NCBI GenBank assembly: GCA_009691195.1
Contig: SHVA01000004.1
Coordinates: 1 to 64,000 of the forward strand
Length of the DNA stretch: 64,000 nucleotides
DNA from: Solirubrobacterales bacterium
GTDB taxonomy: Bacteria > Actinomycetota > Thermoleophilia > Solirubrobacterales > 70-9
Direction of reading: 5' to 3'
Part shown: positions 9,910 to 21,248 of the stretch, piece by piece
How positions within the stretch are numbered: the stretch's first letter is position 1
Layout: each line of letters opens with the position of its first letter
Made by a program: the position numbers and the translations under genes
The notes under the pieces: generated by a model
What the model saw: only the letters and a program-made list of their open reading frames with translations
What the model was told of the DNA's origin: nothing
The model's database searches: none

Positions 9910-10884
9910 ATGGACCCGATAATCATCATCTTCGGCTTCGGCGTCGGCTTCCTGGTCGGATTGACCGGGATGGGCGGCGGATCGCTGATGACGCCGCTGC
10001 TGATCCTCGCCTTCGGGGTACAGCCGGTGACCGCGATCGGCACCGACATCTTCTACGCCGCGATCACCAAGACCTTCGGCACCTGGCAGCACCTGAAGCT
10101 GAAGACGGTCAACCTGCCGCTGGTCTTCTGGATGGCCTGCGGCAGCGTGCCCGCAGCGATCGCCGGCGTCTGGGCGATCGAGGTGCTCCAGCGCCGATAC
10201 GGCGACGACATCGACGGGGTCGTGCTCGGCTTCCTCGCGGGCGCCCTGATCGTCACCGGCGTCGCCACCCTGATCCGGGCCTTCTTCCTGGCGGACAAGA
10301 TCCGCGAGCGCGACGACTTCGAGATGCACGCGCGCCACAAGATCGCCGCGGTCGGGATCGGCGCGCTGACGGGCTTCGTGATCGGGCTCAGCTCTGCGGG
10401 CAGCGGCACCCTGATCGCGATCATGCTGATCGCCGTCTTCCGGCTCACCCCCCGCAAGGTGGTCGGCACCGACATCGCCCACGCCGCGATCCTGCTGACC
10501 GCGGCCGCAGCCGCACACATGGTCGGCGGCAACGTGGACTACACGCTGGCCGGGAACATCCTGATCGGCTCGGTGCCCGGTGTGATCGTCGGCTCACGGC
10601 TATCCGCCAAGTGGTCGCAGGGCGCGCTCCGCACGGCGCTCGCGGTGGTCCTGATCGCGGCCGGACTGACGCTGTTCAGCAAGGCTGACACCGCGGTCGT
10701 CCCCTACGCGCTCGGCGCCACGGCCCTCGGTTTGGGGGCTCTGTTCGCGGCGCAGATCGGCTTCCGCAAGGAGGTCGAGGGGGATCCCGACGAGCAGCGG
10801 GAGATGGCGGAGGCGGGCTCGGATGGCGACGGCTCGGACAACGGGAAGCCGGCCGAGCCGGTCGGAAGCACGAAGCCGGAGTAG
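9910..10884 (+). CDS. TauE/SafE family membrane permease, probable sulfate or sulfite transporter
   Basis: From ATG 9910 the product is 324 residues and begins directly with a membrane helix (MDPIIIIFGFGVGFLVGLTGMGGGSL). An ATG at 9844 would add a 22-residue Pro-rich leader and is less likely. The protein has two halves of hydrophobic helices. The repeated family motif GxxxGxxGMGGG is in the first half and GFVIGLSSAGSGTL in the second. The C-terminal 40 residues are charged and cytosolic. TauE/SafE proteins move sulfite, sulfonates or other small anions. Location after the sulfate genes and a shared upstream element suggest sulfate or sulfite, direction unknown. Confidence 0.78.
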   Translation: MDPIIIIFGFGVGFLVGLTGMGGGSLMTPLLILAFGVQPVTAIGTDIFYAAITKTFGTWQHLKLKTVNLPLVFWMACGSVPAAIAGVWAIEVLQRRYGDDIDGVVLGFLAGALIVTGVATLIRAFFLADKIRERDDFEMHARHKIAAVGIGALTGFVIGLSSAGSGTLIAIMLIAVFRLTPRKVVGTDIAHAAILLTAAAAAHMVGGNVDYTLAGNILIGSVPGVIVGSRLSAKWSQGALRTALAVVLIAAGLTLFSKADTAVVPYALGATALGLGALFAAQIGFRKEVEGDPDEQREMAEAGSDGDGSDNGKPAEPVGSTKPE

Positions 10885-10945
10885 CGGAAGACGGGCTTTC
10901 GCCATCAGCTCGCCGCCGCGAGCCCGCGCCCTAAACTCCCCCGCC

Positions 10946-12709
<1,764 letters not shown>

Positions 12710-12719
12710 GGGGCCCGAC

Positions 12720-14159
12720 GTGAACGAGGGAGCGACCGGCCCCGGCGGCGCGGCGCTGGAGCCCGGGTCCTTCCGCGACCCCGACGGGCGCGTGCTGATC
12801 TCCGGGGAGGAGGTCTACCGGGCCCTGAGCGAGACCGGCCTCGAGGACTGGCGAGCACTCGCCGACTCGCCGCTGTTTGGGGAACTGACCCGCGAGGACC
12901 TGCTCGTCGGCACCGGGGAGGTCGGCGACGAGCGCGTCCTGGGCGAACTGCGAGCCGCGCTTCCGAGTGAGCCCGCGATGGTCCTCCGCCACGAGCGCGT
13001 GCCGTTCATCTCCTACCCCTACGAGTGGTCGTTCTCGATGCTCCGCGACGCCGCGCTGCTGCAGCTCGACCTAAACCTCCGCGCCCTCGACGCCGGCCTG
13101 GCGCTCAAGGACGCAACCCCCTACAACGTGCAGTGGCGCGGGGCCCAGCCCCTGTTCATAGACGTCAGCTCTTTCGAGCGGCTGAGGGAGGGCGAGCCAT
13201 GGGCCGGCTATCGCCAGTTCTGCGAGCTCTACCTCTACCAGCTGATGCTCCAGGCATATCGCGGCTTCGACCTGCAGCCGCTGCTGCGGGGCTCCCTCGA
13301 CGGCATCACCCCCGGTCAGGCCGCCGCCCTGCTCCGCGGCCGCGACGTCCTCCGCCGCGGCGTGATCACCCACGTCAAGCTGCACGCGCGCCTGCAGCGC
13401 TCCAACGAGGACCGCACCCGGGAGGATGTCAAGGGCGAGCTCAAGCGGGCCCAGTTCAAGACCGAGGTGATCCGCGCCAACCTGCGCGGCCTCCAGAAGC
13501 TCGTCGGCAAGCTGCGATGGCGCGCCGGAGAGACGGCCTGGACCGCCTATCGCAAGCGCAACAGCTACGAGGAGGGCGAGGTCGCGGCCAAGCAGGCTTT
13601 CGTGCGGGAGGCCGCCGCCGCGCGCCACCGCAGCCTCGTCTGGGACCTCGGCTGCAACGACGGAGCCTTCGCGCGCATCGCCGCCGAGAGCAGCGACTAC
13701 GTGGTCGCCGTCGACTTCGACCACGCCACCATCGACGCGCTCTACCGCTCGCTCGCCGAGGAGGGCTCCCAGAAGATCCTGCCGCTGGTCGGGAACCTGC
13801 TCGACCCCTCGCCGGGGCTGGGTTGGCGCGGCGCGGAGCGCCGCCCGATGGAGAGCCGCGGCACCCCCGACCTGGTCCTCGCGCTTGCCCTCGTCCACCA
13901 CCTCTCGATCACGGGCAACGTCCCGATCGCAGACCTCGTCGATTGGATGGCCTCGCTGGGTGCGACGCTGGTCGTCGAATTCCCGACCCGCGACGACCCG
14001 ATGGTGACGCGGCTGCTGGCCGCAAAGCGAGAGGGGCTGCACGCCGACTATGAGCTGGCGACGTTCGAGCGGCTGCTCGGCGAGCGCTTCGAGCTCGAGC
14101 GCCGTGAGCAGCTCGACGCGGGCACCCGGGTGCTCTTCCTCGCCCAGCCACGACGATGA
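12720..14159 (+). CDS. NoeA-like protein with C-terminal SAM-dependent methyltransferase domain
   Basis: This 479-residue protein starts at GTG 12720. The N-terminal half (about residues 15-240) contains a conserved block, VPFISYPYEWSFSMLRDAALL, then KDATPYNVQWRG and FIDVSSFERL, as in the NoeA family first named in rhizobial nodulation. The C-terminal half has DLGCNDGAF at 309-317, the SAM-binding loop, followed by an acidic strand end (VVAVDFDH). The N-terminal KDATPYN segment resembles the catalytic loop of kinase-fold proteins, but I cannot confirm that. The target is unknown. Its stop overlaps the start of the sulfatase gene (ATGA), so the pair is translationally coupled. Confidence 0.75.
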   Translation: MNEGATGPGGAALEPGSFRDPDGRVLISGEEVYRALSETGLEDWRALADSPLFGELTREDLLVGTGEVGDERVLGELRAALPSEPAMVLRHERVPFISYPYEWSFSMLRDAALLQLDLNLRALDAGLALKDATPYNVQWRGAQPLFIDVSSFERLREGEPWAGYRQFCELYLYQLMLQAYRGFDLQPLLRGSLDGITPGQAAALLRGRDVLRRGVITHVKLHARLQRSNEDRTREDVKGELKRAQFKTEVIRANLRGLQKLVGKLRWRAGETAWTAYRKRNSYEEGEVAAKQAFVREAAAARHRSLVWDLGCNDGAFARIAAESSDYVVAVDFDHATIDALYRSLAEEGSQKILPLVGNLLDPSPGLGWRGAERRPMESRGTPDLVLALALVHHLSITGNVPIADLVDWMASLGATLVVEFPTRDDPMVTRLLAAKREGLHADYELATFERLLGERFELERREQLDAGTRVLFLAQPRR

Positions 14160-16204
14160 GCGACGAGCCCAAGCCCGAGGGGGAGAGCCAGGGGATCGGT
14201 CGCCTGCTGCTGATCGGCTGGCTTCACCTGATGGTGCTGTGGTCCTTCGCGGTGGCCAAGCCGCTGCTCGACGTGGTCGGGCGCGACCCCGCCTTCTTCG
14301 TCGCCCGCGACAACACCGGCGCCGACATCGTCCTCTTCGCGGTAGCGCTGACCGTGCTGCCGCCACTGCTCTTGATCGCGATCGAGGCCGCCGTCAGCCG
14401 CTGGCGCGACGTCGCCCGGGTCGTCCACCTCGTCTTCGTCGGGCTGCTCGCGGCGGTCCTGGCGATCCAGCTGATCAAGGGGGTTCGCGAGAGCCCGACG
14501 CTGCTGGTGATGATCGCGGCGCTCGCAGTGGGGGGCGGCTTCGCCTACCTCTACTCGCGCGGCGAGTTCCTGAAGTCCGTGCTGACGGTGCTCTCGCCGA
14601 TACCGCTCGTCTTCATCGCGCTGTTCCTCTTCAGCGGCTCGGTCTCGGCGCTGGTCAGCCCCGACCCCGTTCCGGACGAGTCGGCAAAGCTGGTGAGGTC
14701 GGACGCGCCCGTGGTCGAGCTCGTCTTCGACGAGTTCCCGCTCGCCTCGCTGCTTGACGCCAACGGAAAGATCGACGCCTCGCGTTACCCCGGCTTCGCG
14801 GAGCTGGCGGCGCGCTCCACCTGGTATCAGCGCGACACGACGGTCGCCGCCTTCACCCACTTCGCGGTCCCCGCCATCCTCAGCGGCCAGTCGCAGCCCG
14901 GCTCCCCTCTGCCCACCGCCGCCAAGCACCCCAAGAACCTGTTCACCGTGCTCGCCGGTCACAGGCAGATGAACGCCTACGAGGCCGTCACCCGCCTCTG
15001 CCCGGAGGACGAGTGCGGCGCACCGCGGCGCGATGGGTTCTGGAAGCGGTCGGCGGCGCTTTGGCAGGACCTGAGCGCCGTCGAGGGCGAGAAGGTGCTG
15101 CCGCCGGCCTACGCGGAGGGGCTGCCGCACGTGGACCAGGGGTTCGGCCACTTCTTCGATTTCGACAACCTGCCTGAGGACATCTCGGCCTTCGAGGACT
15201 TCCTCGAGGGCATGCACGTCCCGCCGCCCTCGCAGCTGAGCTTCTTCCACGCCCTGCTCCCCCACGTGCCCTGGCACCTGCTCCCCGACGGCCACGTCTA
15301 CTCCGACACCCTGAACCAGTCGAGGTTCGAGGGGAGCGAGGCGGACGGCTGGGCGGTGCGCCAGTCGGTGATCAACCACTTCTGGGAGCGGCACCTGCTC
15401 CAGGTCGGCTTCGCCGACCGCATGGTCCAGCAGCTGATCGCCCGTCTGAAGCGACTTGGGATCTGGGACAGGGCGCTTGTGGTGGTCACCGCCGACCATG
15501 GCGCTGCCTTCTATCCGCACCGGCCCCGACGCGACGCGACGCCGGAGAACGCCGCCGCGATCCTCAGGGTGCCGCTGTTCATCAAGGCCCCGGGGCAGAC
15601 CACGGGACGGGTCTCCGAGGCGCCGATCTGTTCGAGCGACGTGCTTCCCAGGATCGGGGGCATGCTCGGCATCAGGCCGAAGATCAAGCGGACTCCCTGC
15701 GATCCGCGGCGGGTGGTCGTCTACAGCGCCGGCAAGACCGTGACCGTGCACCGGAAGCGAATCGACCGTGGGTTCGAGGCGCTGCTGAGGCGGCAGGCGA
15801 GGTTCTTTCCCTCACACCGGGGCTGGGGGGCGATCTACCGCTCGGGCGACCGCTTCGGACTGATCGGCAGGAAGGTCGGCTCGCTGCCCCACGGTCCGGA
15901 TCTCGGGGTGAGCGCGAATCTCGGCGACAACGGCGACGATCGCAGCCACGGCCCCGACGACGCCGTCACCGAGGTGCTGGTCAGCGCCGGGCTCTCCGGC
16001 CCCGTACGGCCGGGCAAACCGGTGGCGATCGCCGTCGGTAACCGGATCGAGGCGATCGGGGTCAGCTACTACATCGACGCCGACGGGGCGTTCGGCATCG
16101 CCGGGGTGCTGCCGCCGAGCTCCCTCAATGAAGGGCCGATCTCGCTCTATTGGATCGGGGGCGGCGACCACTCGGAGCTGCAGCTCATCCCGCTGGAGGA
16201 ATGA
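14156..16204 (+). CDS. Membrane-anchored sulfatase / alkaline phosphatase superfamily protein
   Basis: This 682-residue protein has about five hydrophobic helices in residues 15-165. An extracellular sulfatase-fold domain follows, beginning at PVVELVFDEFP (metal-binding Asp), with TTVAAFTHFAVPAILSG (nucleophile region, Thr rich), HALLPHVPWHLLPDG and TADHG at 445-449 (metal ligands). The layout resembles lipoteichoic acid synthases and phosphoethanolamine transferases, which move phosphorylated groups from lipid donors to cell-surface polymers. It is flanked by a methyltransferase that it overlaps and by a small membrane protein, which suggests envelope modification. The exact donor and acceptor are not predictable. 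Confidence 0.8.
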   Translation: MSDEPKPEGESQGIGRLLLIGWLHLMVLWSFAVAKPLLDVVGRDPAFFVARDNTGADIVLFAVALTVLPPLLLIAIEAAVSRWRDVARVVHLVFVGLLAAVLAIQLIKGVRESPTLLVMIAALAVGGGFAYLYSRGEFLKSVLTVLSPIPLVFIALFLFSGSVSALVSPDPVPDESAKLVRSDAPVVELVFDEFPLASLLDANGKIDASRYPGFAELAARSTWYQRDTTVAAFTHFAVPAILSGQSQPGSPLPTAAKHPKNLFTVLAGHRQMNAYEAVTRLCPEDECGAPRRDGFWKRSAALWQDLSAVEGEKVLPPAYAEGLPHVDQGFGHFFDFDNLPEDISAFEDFLEGMHVPPPSQLSFFHALLPHVPWHLLPDGHVYSDTLNQSRFEGSEADGWAVRQSVINHFWERHLLQVGFADRMVQQLIARLKRLGIWDRALVVVTADHGAAFYPHRPRRDATPENAAAILRVPLFIKAPGQTTGRVSEAPICSSDVLPRIGGMLGIRPKIKRTPCDPRRVVVYSAGKTVTVHRKRIDRGFEALLRRQARFFPSHRGWGAIYRSGDRFGLIGRKVGSLPHGPDLGVSANLGDNGDDRSHGPDDAVTEVLVSAGLSGPVRPGKPVAIAVGNRIEAIGVSYYIDADGAFGIAGVLPPSSLNEGPISLYWIGGGDHSELQLIPLEE

Positions 16205-16237
16205 GGCCGGTCTGAGCGCGCCTTCTCCCGGGCTCCC

Positions 16238-16252
16238 CGCTAGCTGCTAGCG
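16238..16252. promoter_or_regulatory. Perfect 15-base palindrome upstream of the DPGSGS protein gene
   Basis: CGCTAGC and GCTAGCG flank a single T, giving a perfect 7+1+7 palindrome. The one-base centre argues against a hairpin and for a dimer-binding operator. The right half contains TAGCGT, a plausible -10 hexamer about 50 bases before the TTG start of the next gene. It may allow that gene to be expressed apart from the sulfatase. Confidence 0.35.
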
Positions 16253-16301
16253 TCCCCGCGTCCGTCGGGCAGGACGGGAACGCACCAAGAGAGGAGTCAA
16301 C

Positions 16302-16493
16302 TTGAGTGGAATCATCCTGGGGTACCTAGACCCCGGCAGTGGCAGCATGATCCTGCAGGCCCTCCTCGGAGGCGTGGCCGGTTTCCTGGTCGCGCTGAAG
16401 ATGTTCGGCCGCCGCATGCTCAGCTTTTTCACGTTCTGGAAGCGGGACAAAGAGCCCGATCCGAGCGAACCGAGCACCGAGACAGACGGCTGA
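16302..16493 (+). CDS. Small membrane protein with DPGSGS motif
   Basis: This 63-residue protein starts at TTG 16302, with GAGGAG about 6 bases upstream, a strong site that supports the rare start. The order is a short strand (SGIILGYL), the motif DPGSGSMI, one hydrophobic helix (LQALLGGVAGFLVALKMF), an Arg-Arg stop-transfer, and a charged tail ending in acidic residues. Proteins with this YxDPGSGS-helix pattern occur as unnamed open frames beside membrane sulfatases and NoeA-like methyltransferases, from memory of the family. No function is known to me. It may assemble with or present substrate to the sulfatase. Confidence 0.75.
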   Translation: MSGIILGYLDPGSGSMILQALLGGVAGFLVALKMFGRRMLSFFTFWKRDKEPDPSEPSTETDG

Positions 16494-16507
16494 GAGGCCG
16501 GCGCCTG

Positions 16508-16571
16508 CTTGGCGCCGAGCCTTGCCGCTGCTTCGCGCCTACTTGGCGCCGAGCCTTGCCGCTGCTTCGCG
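16508..16571. repeat. Tandem duplication of the 3' end of the HAD gene
   Basis: A 30-base unit occurs at 16508-16537 and again, identical, at 16542-16571, giving a 34-base period. The second copy encodes the last residues (REAAARLGAK) of the convergent HAD gene; the first copy lies after that gene's stop codon. Identity of the copies points to a recent slippage or duplication event. Confidence 0.85.
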
Positions 16572-20531: not shown

Positions 20532-21248
20532 TCAGCTTGCCTTGCTCTGCTGGGCGGCTCGGCGGAGGGCGGCTCGGCGCCTGGCCTCGCGTTCGCGGCG
20601 GGCCCACTGGCCGCTGCCCGGCTCCAGCGGCTTCCGCGTCGTCGCCGCGTCGGTGGACGGCTTCGGTCGCTCGGCGGAGGGCTCAGGTCGCTCGGCGGAG
20701 GGCTCAGGTCGCTCGGCGGAGGGCTCAGGTCGCTCGGCGGAGGGCTCAGGTCGCTCGGCGGAGGGCTCAGGTCGCTCGGCGGATGGCTCAGGTCGCTCGG
20801 CGGGGTCCGGGCTGGGCGCGGGAGGGTCGGGAGAGCGCTCGGCCACCGCGGTCGAGCGGGCCGCCATCTCGGCGGCGCGCAGGGCCTCCTCGCGGGTCAG
20901 GTAGACGGCGCATGCGACCAACCTCGTGTTCTCGATCATCCAGAGCGCCGCGTGGCGCTCCTTGAGAAGAAAGTCGGTCTCGAGCCTGCTCCCGCGCTCG
21001 CTGTAGACCGCGATCACGCCGTGCTCGCCGCAGTCGATCAGCTCCTCGAGCTGGAAGCTGTAGTCCTTCCAGTCGCTGAGACGTCCCTCCATCGCGCGGA
21101 GGACATCGTCGTGGCCCCAGACCAGCTCGCCTTCGGGCCGGGCGGCGCGCTCGTCCCACCGCATCATCGGGTCAGCGAGCGCAAGCACGATCTCGTAGTC
21201 GCGGGCCCCGTAGGCCTGCATCGCGATCCGAACCAGCTCAACCCCCAT
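20532..21248 (-). CDS. SnoaL-like protein with a heptapeptide-repeat tail
   Basis: From ATG 21248 the product is 238 residues; a frame open to 21386 adds a poor basic leader. Residues 1-120 look like an NTF2/SnoaL fold: MGVELVRIAMQAYGARDYEIVLALADPMMRW, then GHDDVLRAMEGRLSDWKDYSFQLEEL. The tail (about 145-205) is six to seven copies of a Pro-Ser-Ala-Glu-Arg-Pro-Glu type repeat encoded by a 21-base tandem repeat. A basic Arg/Ala-rich end follows. The fold is used by ketosteroid-isomerase-like enzymes and by non-enzymatic proteins. The tail is probably disordered and extended. Function unknown. Confidence 0.6.
   Translation of the reverse strand: MGVELVRIAMQAYGARDYEIVLALADPMMRWDERAARPEGELVWGHDDVLRAMEGRLSDWKDYSFQLEELIDCGEHGVIAVYSERGSRLETDFLLKERHAALWMIENTRLVACAVYLTREEALRAAEMAARSTAVAERSPDPPAPSPDPAERPEPSAERPEPSAERPEPSAERPEPSAERPEPSAERPEPSAERPKPSTDAATTRKPLEPGSGQWARREREARRRAALRRAAQQSKAS
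20665..20805. repeat. 21-base tandem repeat array inside a coding region
   Basis: Six full 21-base units (starts 20665, 20686, 20707, 20728, 20749, 20770) and a partial seventh at 20791 are identical except for one base in unit six and divergence in unit seven. Each unit adds seven residues to the SnoaL-like protein, so copy-number change keeps the frame. Confidence 0.95.

Follow-up and report, generated by a model that had tools for sequence, protein, structure and literature searches.

Do a NoeA-like gene, a gene annotated as a membrane sulfatase and an open reading frame (ORF) for a 63-residue protein with a YxDPGSGS motif belong to a single system, and what might that system do? The question is raised by a locus in a 64,000-nucleotide stretch of a Solirubrobacterales genome (contig SHVA01000004.1, assembly GCA_009691195.1), here called the window. 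An initial annotation, made from this DNA alone, described there a NoeA-like protein, a membrane enzyme coupled to it by an ATGA overlap and the short protein with its strong ribosome site, and joined the three in one envelope module. All three ORFs are present as described, on the forward strand, as are the sites in them that are located below: the NoeA-family kinase-methyltransferase at 12720-14159 (479 amino acids, GTG start), the membrane enzyme, a NoeB-like member of the alkaline phosphatase superfamily, at 14156-16204 (682 amino acids), and the short protein, hereafter the mini-protein, at 16302-16493 (63 amino acids, TTG start). The grouping into one module also held up, with co-occurrence far beyond chance and no curated family claiming the mini-protein. 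Mini-protein, NoeA and membrane enzyme are confirmed here as a real and widespread module, usually of adjacent genes. Both noeA and noeB have reportedly been known as host-range genes since 1995, their biochemistry not being settled.

Profile searches provided the check on co-occurrence that the initial annotation had called for. Among 50 genomes of the window's own family, NoeA and the mini-protein were found in the same 15; one further weak mini-protein match falls inside a 678-residue ORF. The 396 sampled genomes of Actinomycetota gave the mini-protein in 45 and NoeA in 47, all 45 being shared; of the two with NoeA only, one has a NoeA gene that runs off the end of its contig, and in the other the match is distant. 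Both were found in the same 5 of 249 Pseudomonadota genomes, while 244 Planctomycetota genomes yielded 13 with the mini-protein, all with NoeA, and 16 with NoeA; in one of the three lacking a mini-protein match, inspection revealed a weaker mini-protein adjoining NoeA. Fisher probabilities run from 1e-10 to 2e-57 (the latter for Actinomycetota), uncorrected for shared ancestry; the pattern nevertheless recurs across three phyla, and also where the genes are patchily distributed within a single genus.

The genes are also linked. The mini-protein gene lies directly 5′ of NoeA on the same strand for 41/52 actinobacterial and 12/14 planctomycete matches. For 80 mini-proteins from sampled and seed loci, with distance limits of 2.5 kb for NoeA and 3.5 kb for the membrane enzyme, NoeA was near 67 and the enzyme near 66; 8 had the enzyme only, 9 NoeA only and 5 neither. 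The mini-protein profile was built from NoeA-adjacent members, which biases the NoeA share upward, and the 8 enzyme-only cases are therefore informative. No membrane-enzyme match was found in 320 kb of control DNA taken from elsewhere, mostly in the same genomes.

We define the mini-protein family from 124 non-redundant members, a widespread microprotein family with a clear predicted topology. The common layout is Y-x-D (Tyr1 in 120/124, Asp3 in 124/124), then P/A-G-S/T-G-S, a helix with a G/A-G-x-A-G/A pattern, and then K/R. Only the Tyr and Asp are nearly fixed: the Ser/Thr positions of the motif admit A, G, V and D, and the cytoplasmic tail shows no conservation. In four members Cys replaces Tyr1. 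Two of these are second, degenerate copies (C-I-D-A-G-S-G-S) in a pair of related actinobacterial genomes (L180:9320-9499 and L181:9261-9440), far from NoeA or the membrane enzyme. Of the 124, 36 carry what looks like a signal peptide, which has a small residue (Ala) at -1 and stops immediately ahead of Tyr1; these come from Alpha- and Gammaproteobacteria, Binatota, Acidobacteriota, Planctomycetota and some Actinomycetota. The remaining members usually have their start codon 2-7 residues before the motif. Signal peptides ending before Tyr1, together with positive charges after the helix, place the YxDPGSGS tip outside the cell membrane, and the mini-protein is predicted from these features to be a single-pass protein with the tip as its extracytoplasmic mature N-terminus. 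In the window the motif reads YLDPGSGS (residues 8-15, 16323-16346), corresponding to the predicted mature N-terminus of those 36 relatives, and the ribosome site AGAGGAG, read from the sequence, lies at 16290-16296, 5 nt 5′ of the TTG start.

That so short an ORF is a real gene follows from the homologues that adjoin the NoeA gene in almost all relatives whose contigs extend far enough, and from purifying selection among relatives (ratio of nonsynonymous to synonymous substitution rates, dN/dS, about 0.03-0.3). Both a chance ORF and a leader peptide were considered; conservation, purifying selection, the signal peptides and the unlinked copies that occur next to the membrane enzyme rule them out. 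The initial annotation knew of no named function for the protein, and indeed Pfam and NCBIfam gave no credible match for any of 36 members; its reading of the motif had to be corrected, this being the predicted outward-facing mature N-terminus. Neither DPGSGS nor DPGTGS appears as a string in any relevant paper of the open literature.

In the window NoeA, Pfam has no match for the N-terminal half and a weak methyltransferase match for the C-terminal half; across the family Methyltransf_12 was matched in 37/61 members. An AlphaFold2 model of the protein has a mean predicted local distance difference test (pLDDT) score of 90. Foldseek with the full-length model returned methyltransferases only, that domain being dominant, and the N-terminal domain was therefore modelled separately: its 50 top PDB matches are dominated by protein kinases (E down to 1e-5), and the RNase L entries among its matches carry a kinase-like domain. 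The initial annotation was right that this half is not a methyltransferase, but the unspecified activity on a soluble precursor that it proposed gives way, since the fold is that of a protein kinase. A catalytic loop D131-ATPY-N136 (LKDATPYNV, 13110-13127) and a metal-binding Asp, D148 (13161-13163, in FIDVSSF, the equivalent of DFG), are present in 153/153 homologues, a set that includes some duplicate genomes; the N-to-D spacing is 12, against 13 in PKA. The C-terminal domain is a class I S-adenosylmethionine (SAM) methyltransferase with its conserved SAM motif DxGxN intact, and His393-His394 (13896-13901) are likewise found in 153/153. NoeA is thus an N-terminal protein-kinase fold joined to a C-terminal methyltransferase, with the active-site residues of both invariant. 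A phage-defence reading was tried and rejected: the single PADLOC match of NoeA, mad2 (4e-8), covers the methyltransferase domain, the enzyme and the mini-protein have no PADLOC match, and the mini-protein is absent from the phage collection.

The PDB sequence closest to the NoeA profile is WbdD, in the methyltransferase domain (E 2.8e-4). WbdD of Escherichia coli O9a adds a phosphate to the terminal mannose of a glycan and subsequently methylates it, and its His132/His133 with Arg203 have been singled out as enabling the phosphate nucleophile (PMC3482155). NoeA His393-His394 align with WbdD chain residues 145-146, which are His132/His133 because the chain numbering runs 13 ahead of that paper (Asp95 = Asp82). 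Two NoeA genes without a linked mini-protein (loci L184 and L194) adjoin genes for a Wzm-like ABC-2 exporter and a Wzt ATPase with a Wzt_C domain, a setting of the type of export pathway that WbdD serves.

The membrane enzyme has N-terminal helices followed by an alkaline-phosphatase-superfamily domain. The initial annotation called it a membrane sulfatase, of which the superfamily fold stands (Pfam Sulfatase E 5.7e-15, Phosphodiest 1.7e-5; this fold and the metal-binding D...DH of the Pfam Sulfatase clan are present) and the sulfatase does not. The formylglycine Cys/Ser signature, C/S-x-P-x-R, is absent in the window enzyme, which reads THFAV there. At the nucleophile position, T234 (14855-14857), the 148 homologues have T in 132 and S in 14, and never Cys. 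Sulfatase activity was rejected on these residues, and "sulfatase" is a label for the fold only. Metal ligand positions are D192 (14729-14731; 147/148 homologues) and D447-H448 (15494-15499; D in 144/144, H in 127/144). Judged by these residues, the enzyme appears to be phosphotransferase- or phosphodiesterase-like. Several relatives (loci L023, L026, L027, L028) carry two or three tandem paralogues from the same enzyme family, no more than about 10 kb from the module.

Searching plasmids with the NoeA of the window led to the symbiosis plasmids of Sinorhizobium, Rhizobium and Ensifer (S. meliloti NoeA, tblastn 34% over 93%), and a signal-peptide mini-protein as query led to the same plasmids, at a position just before noeA. 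The annotation of S. meliloti ml47 runs nodL, a 71-residue "hypothetical protein", noeA, noeB. The 71-residue protein is a mini-protein, MPIIMSVVGFLILSIVPAHA-YLDPGTGSMLVQGLIGALAIGGAAVSGYWNKIRWAVRSFLGRENNGKNGGK, with the motif YLDPGTGS; its gene (CP140953.1 997203-997418; L198:3974-4189) overlaps the noeA start by 23 nt. The same ORF is in pSymA of S. meliloti 1021 (L197:3974-4189), whose record lists no genes in that stretch; it is present, again as a hypothetical protein, on plasmids of Ensifer canadensis and Rhizobium sp. T1470. S. meliloti NoeA matches the NoeA-family profile with E 9e-129; for NoeB and the profile of the membrane enzymes E is 7e-29. With a mini-protein between nodL and noeA and with these profile matches, the window module and the host-range operon are the same three-part set; like the window, the plasmids of S. 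meliloti, E. canadensis and Rhizobium T1470 have mini-protein, NoeA and NoeB-like enzyme clustered. In rhizobia the operon looks to be a copy of the module that was co-opted. Its third, obligate-looking partner is thus only a hypothetical protein, or unannotated, in the plasmid records examined, and because its gene overlaps the noeA start, noeA and operon mutants may have to be reinterpreted. The N-terminus of S. meliloti NoeB has VYIDPRSDAGYAV before its membrane helix, which recalls the mini-protein motif and may be coincidence.

How might the three parts work together? The reading that we prefer, and to which we give an even chance, is cytoplasmic methyl-phosphate capping of a saccharide by NoeA, after which the membrane enzyme, with the mini-protein as its subunit, would process the product outside. 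NoeA, acting like WbdD in the cytoplasm, would phosphorylate a hydroxyl of a saccharide, probably lipid- or polyprenol-linked, and then methylate the phosphate; the capped product would be exported. The Thr-dependent membrane enzyme would act on the phosphodiester at the outer face, most likely transferring or trimming a phosphoryl group in the manner of LtaS or EptA. As a transmembrane subunit of that enzyme, the mini-protein may pack its small-residue helix (GGxAG) against the enzyme helices, with its Tyr-x-Asp tip at or near the outer active site. NoeA and NoeB would thereby gain a concrete candidate reaction, phosphorylation and phosphate methylation followed by phosphoryl chemistry at the outer face, and the finding suggests a general route for methyl-phosphate capping of surface glycans from Actinomycetota to Planctomycetota.

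Several points weigh against this capping scheme. The kinase-fold matches of the NoeA N-terminal domain have low template modelling (TM) scores, 0.30-0.43, and the usual kinase catalytic Lys was not identified in that domain. The match of WbdD to NoeA is weak in sequence, and the alignment of their kinase loops is sub-threshold (DDVRPWNV...LIDFGS with D-x4-N...ID-x-GS of NoeA); moreover the order of domains is reversed, WbdD being methyltransferase-first and NoeA kinase-first. A His-His pair is common in ordinary class I methyltransferases and thus does not prove phosphate methylation. About 11% of mini-proteins have NoeA without a nearby membrane enzyme. Glycan genes, glycosyltransferases in the neighbour tally, are only slightly enriched near the module (4/112 neighbours, against 0 among 25 listed families of 100 controls). 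A literature search returned no biochemical data for any module member.

NoeA might instead phosphorylate and methylate a small soluble alcohol or aminoalcohol, or a lipid head group, and the membrane enzyme would attach the phospho-group to a surface polymer, as EptA and phosphocholine transferases do; we regard this as possible, though on the improbable side. In its favour, membrane enzymes of the alkaline-phosphatase fold whose nucleophile is Thr take phospho-head groups from lipids and transfer them, and most module loci stand alone, not in glycan clusters. It sits less well with the two NoeA genes beside Wzt_C-type exporters. WbdD, the nearest relative with a solved structure, has a glycan-borne phosphate as its methylation target (PMC3482155), which also speaks for a saccharide.

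Other alternatives concern the mini-protein. The sharpest is a covalent shuttle, unlikely in our judgement, in which the outer N-terminal Tyr would receive a (methyl)phosphoryl or other group from the enzyme Thr or deliver one to it, much as the outer Tyr of DltX carries D-alanine. A nearly invariant Tyr and a wholly invariant Asp at the predicted mature N-terminus are what it would call for, and mini-proteins found with the enzyme alone suit it as well; but Cys replaces Tyr in four members, those of L180 and L181 included, and the motif is on the opposite terminus from that of DltX. We know of no phosphoryl shuttle of the DltX type. Membrane microproteins that use an invariant outer Tyr as an acyl carrier are established (DltX; PMC12148441), but it is acyl groups that DltX moves, and in MBOAT-SGNH systems. 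Extending the shuttle, one may imagine a transmembrane group-transfer machine, a phosphoryl counterpart of DltX/MBOAT-SGNH, whose mature Tyr-x-Asp tip would carry or position a (methyl)phosphoryl group between the cytoplasmic kinase-methyltransferase pathway and the outer Thr-phosphotransferase; we doubt that this is so, and if it were, the mini-protein in rhizobia would be an unrecognised determinant of host range. A small conserved peptide nearly always encoded with modifying enzymes, with a Ser/Thr-rich motif, could instead be their substrate, a peptide of the ribosomally synthesised and post-translationally modified type (RiPP-like) or a phosphoprotein, modified by the kinase-methyltransferase or by the membrane enzyme. 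This we think quite improbable: NoeA is cytoplasmic, and the mini-protein is an unlikely NoeA substrate because its conserved part is outside and its cytoplasmic tail variable; it is also the Ser/Thr positions that vary, Tyr and Asp alone being nearly fixed. Specificity for Nod-factor decoration, finally, would account for noeA and noeB as host-range genes beside nodL, which have been hypothesised to modify the Nod factor (PMC9048898), but it is very improbable, being already disfavoured by distribution: most carriers found are not rhizobia but Thermoleophilia, Acidimicrobiia, Planctomycetota, Binatota, Acidobacteriota and Gammaproteobacteria.

The window differs in gene order from its relatives, which are Solirubrobacterales/Thermoleophilia genomes. 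Nearly all of them have mini-protein, NoeA, enzyme, and relative to that order the mini-protein gene of the window has moved behind the enzyme gene. The region between the two has no sigma-70-like promoter, no coding-strand terminator and no unusual fold. Immediately 5′ of the module is a biotin carboxylase-carrier fusion (10823-12709), whose true start probably lies about 40 codons further in than the listed one. Many relatives have this gene ahead of the module too, so that the position of the locus is conserved, though the functions look unrelated. A 34-bp direct repeat in two copies (97%) lies at 16501-16571, between the mini-protein gene and a converging HAD-hydrolase gene, whose 3′ end it overlaps. 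Seven near-perfect 21-bp tandem repeats (96% matches) at 20650-20803 would translate, according to the strand and frame chosen, into short repeats rich in Ser/Arg/Gly or in Pro/Glu.

Several known systems bear comparison with the module. The nodL-noeA-noeB operon of S. meliloti (nod box n5) has homologues of the mini-protein, NoeA and NoeB as the window does; it differs in gene order, in the nod genes that the surroundings of the window lack, in a shorter NoeB (about 553 residues against 682) and in the signal peptide of its mini-protein, absent from that of the window. WbdD, like NoeA, unites a kinase and a class I methyltransferase in a single chain with the His-His pair at the same place; it has a coiled coil, none being seen in NoeA, and NoeA unlike WbdD is usually paired with a mini-protein and a phosphatase-fold enzyme. 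Given the different domain architecture, the likeness suggested is one of working only. Enzymes of the LtaS/EptA/OpgB type share with the membrane enzyme the N-terminal membrane helices, the outer catalytic domain, the Thr nucleophile position and the metal-binding D...D-H. The membrane enzyme belongs to a distinct subfamily, with partial matches only and none near an equivalog cut-off, and may resemble LtaS/EptA-type phosphotransferases, with which architecture and nucleophile agree. DltX, a membrane microprotein that shuttles D-alanine on its invariant outer Tyr in teichoic acid D-alanylation (PMC12148441), is like the mini-protein tiny and single-pass, with an invariant Tyr near the outer terminus and an outer-face transferase as partner. 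Its Tyr is at the opposite terminus and its partners are MBOAT/SGNH proteins; by eye no sequence relation was seen.

A further published account is that of Lani_1194, by its authors' own NoeA assignment the same family as the window NoeA: an atypical kinase fused to a methyltransferase, both domains being present in 94% of homologues, with recurrent neighbours Lani_1195 (NoeB-like, alkaline phosphatase fold) and Lani_1193 (PMC9758233, 2022). Our kinase-fold result agrees with that account, in whose text the YxDPGSGS motif, its topology and a small-protein family go unmentioned; Lani_1193, at the same operon position and in 65% of neighbourhoods, is probably a mini-protein. The initial annotation's word "undescribed" therefore applies to the mini-protein family, which we did not find described, but not to the NoeA architecture and the conserved NoeB neighbourhood, already known from that work (PMC9758233), nor to NoeA and NoeB as nodulation genes. 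New, as far as our literature search reached, are the mini-protein as a defined family with its signal peptide, outward N-terminus and separate association with the membrane enzyme, its place inside the nodL-noeA-noeB operon, the Thr/Ser nucleophile of its partner and the WbdD active-site match. The earlier account leans to an effector role, whereas the distribution found here points to a general function in the cell envelope.

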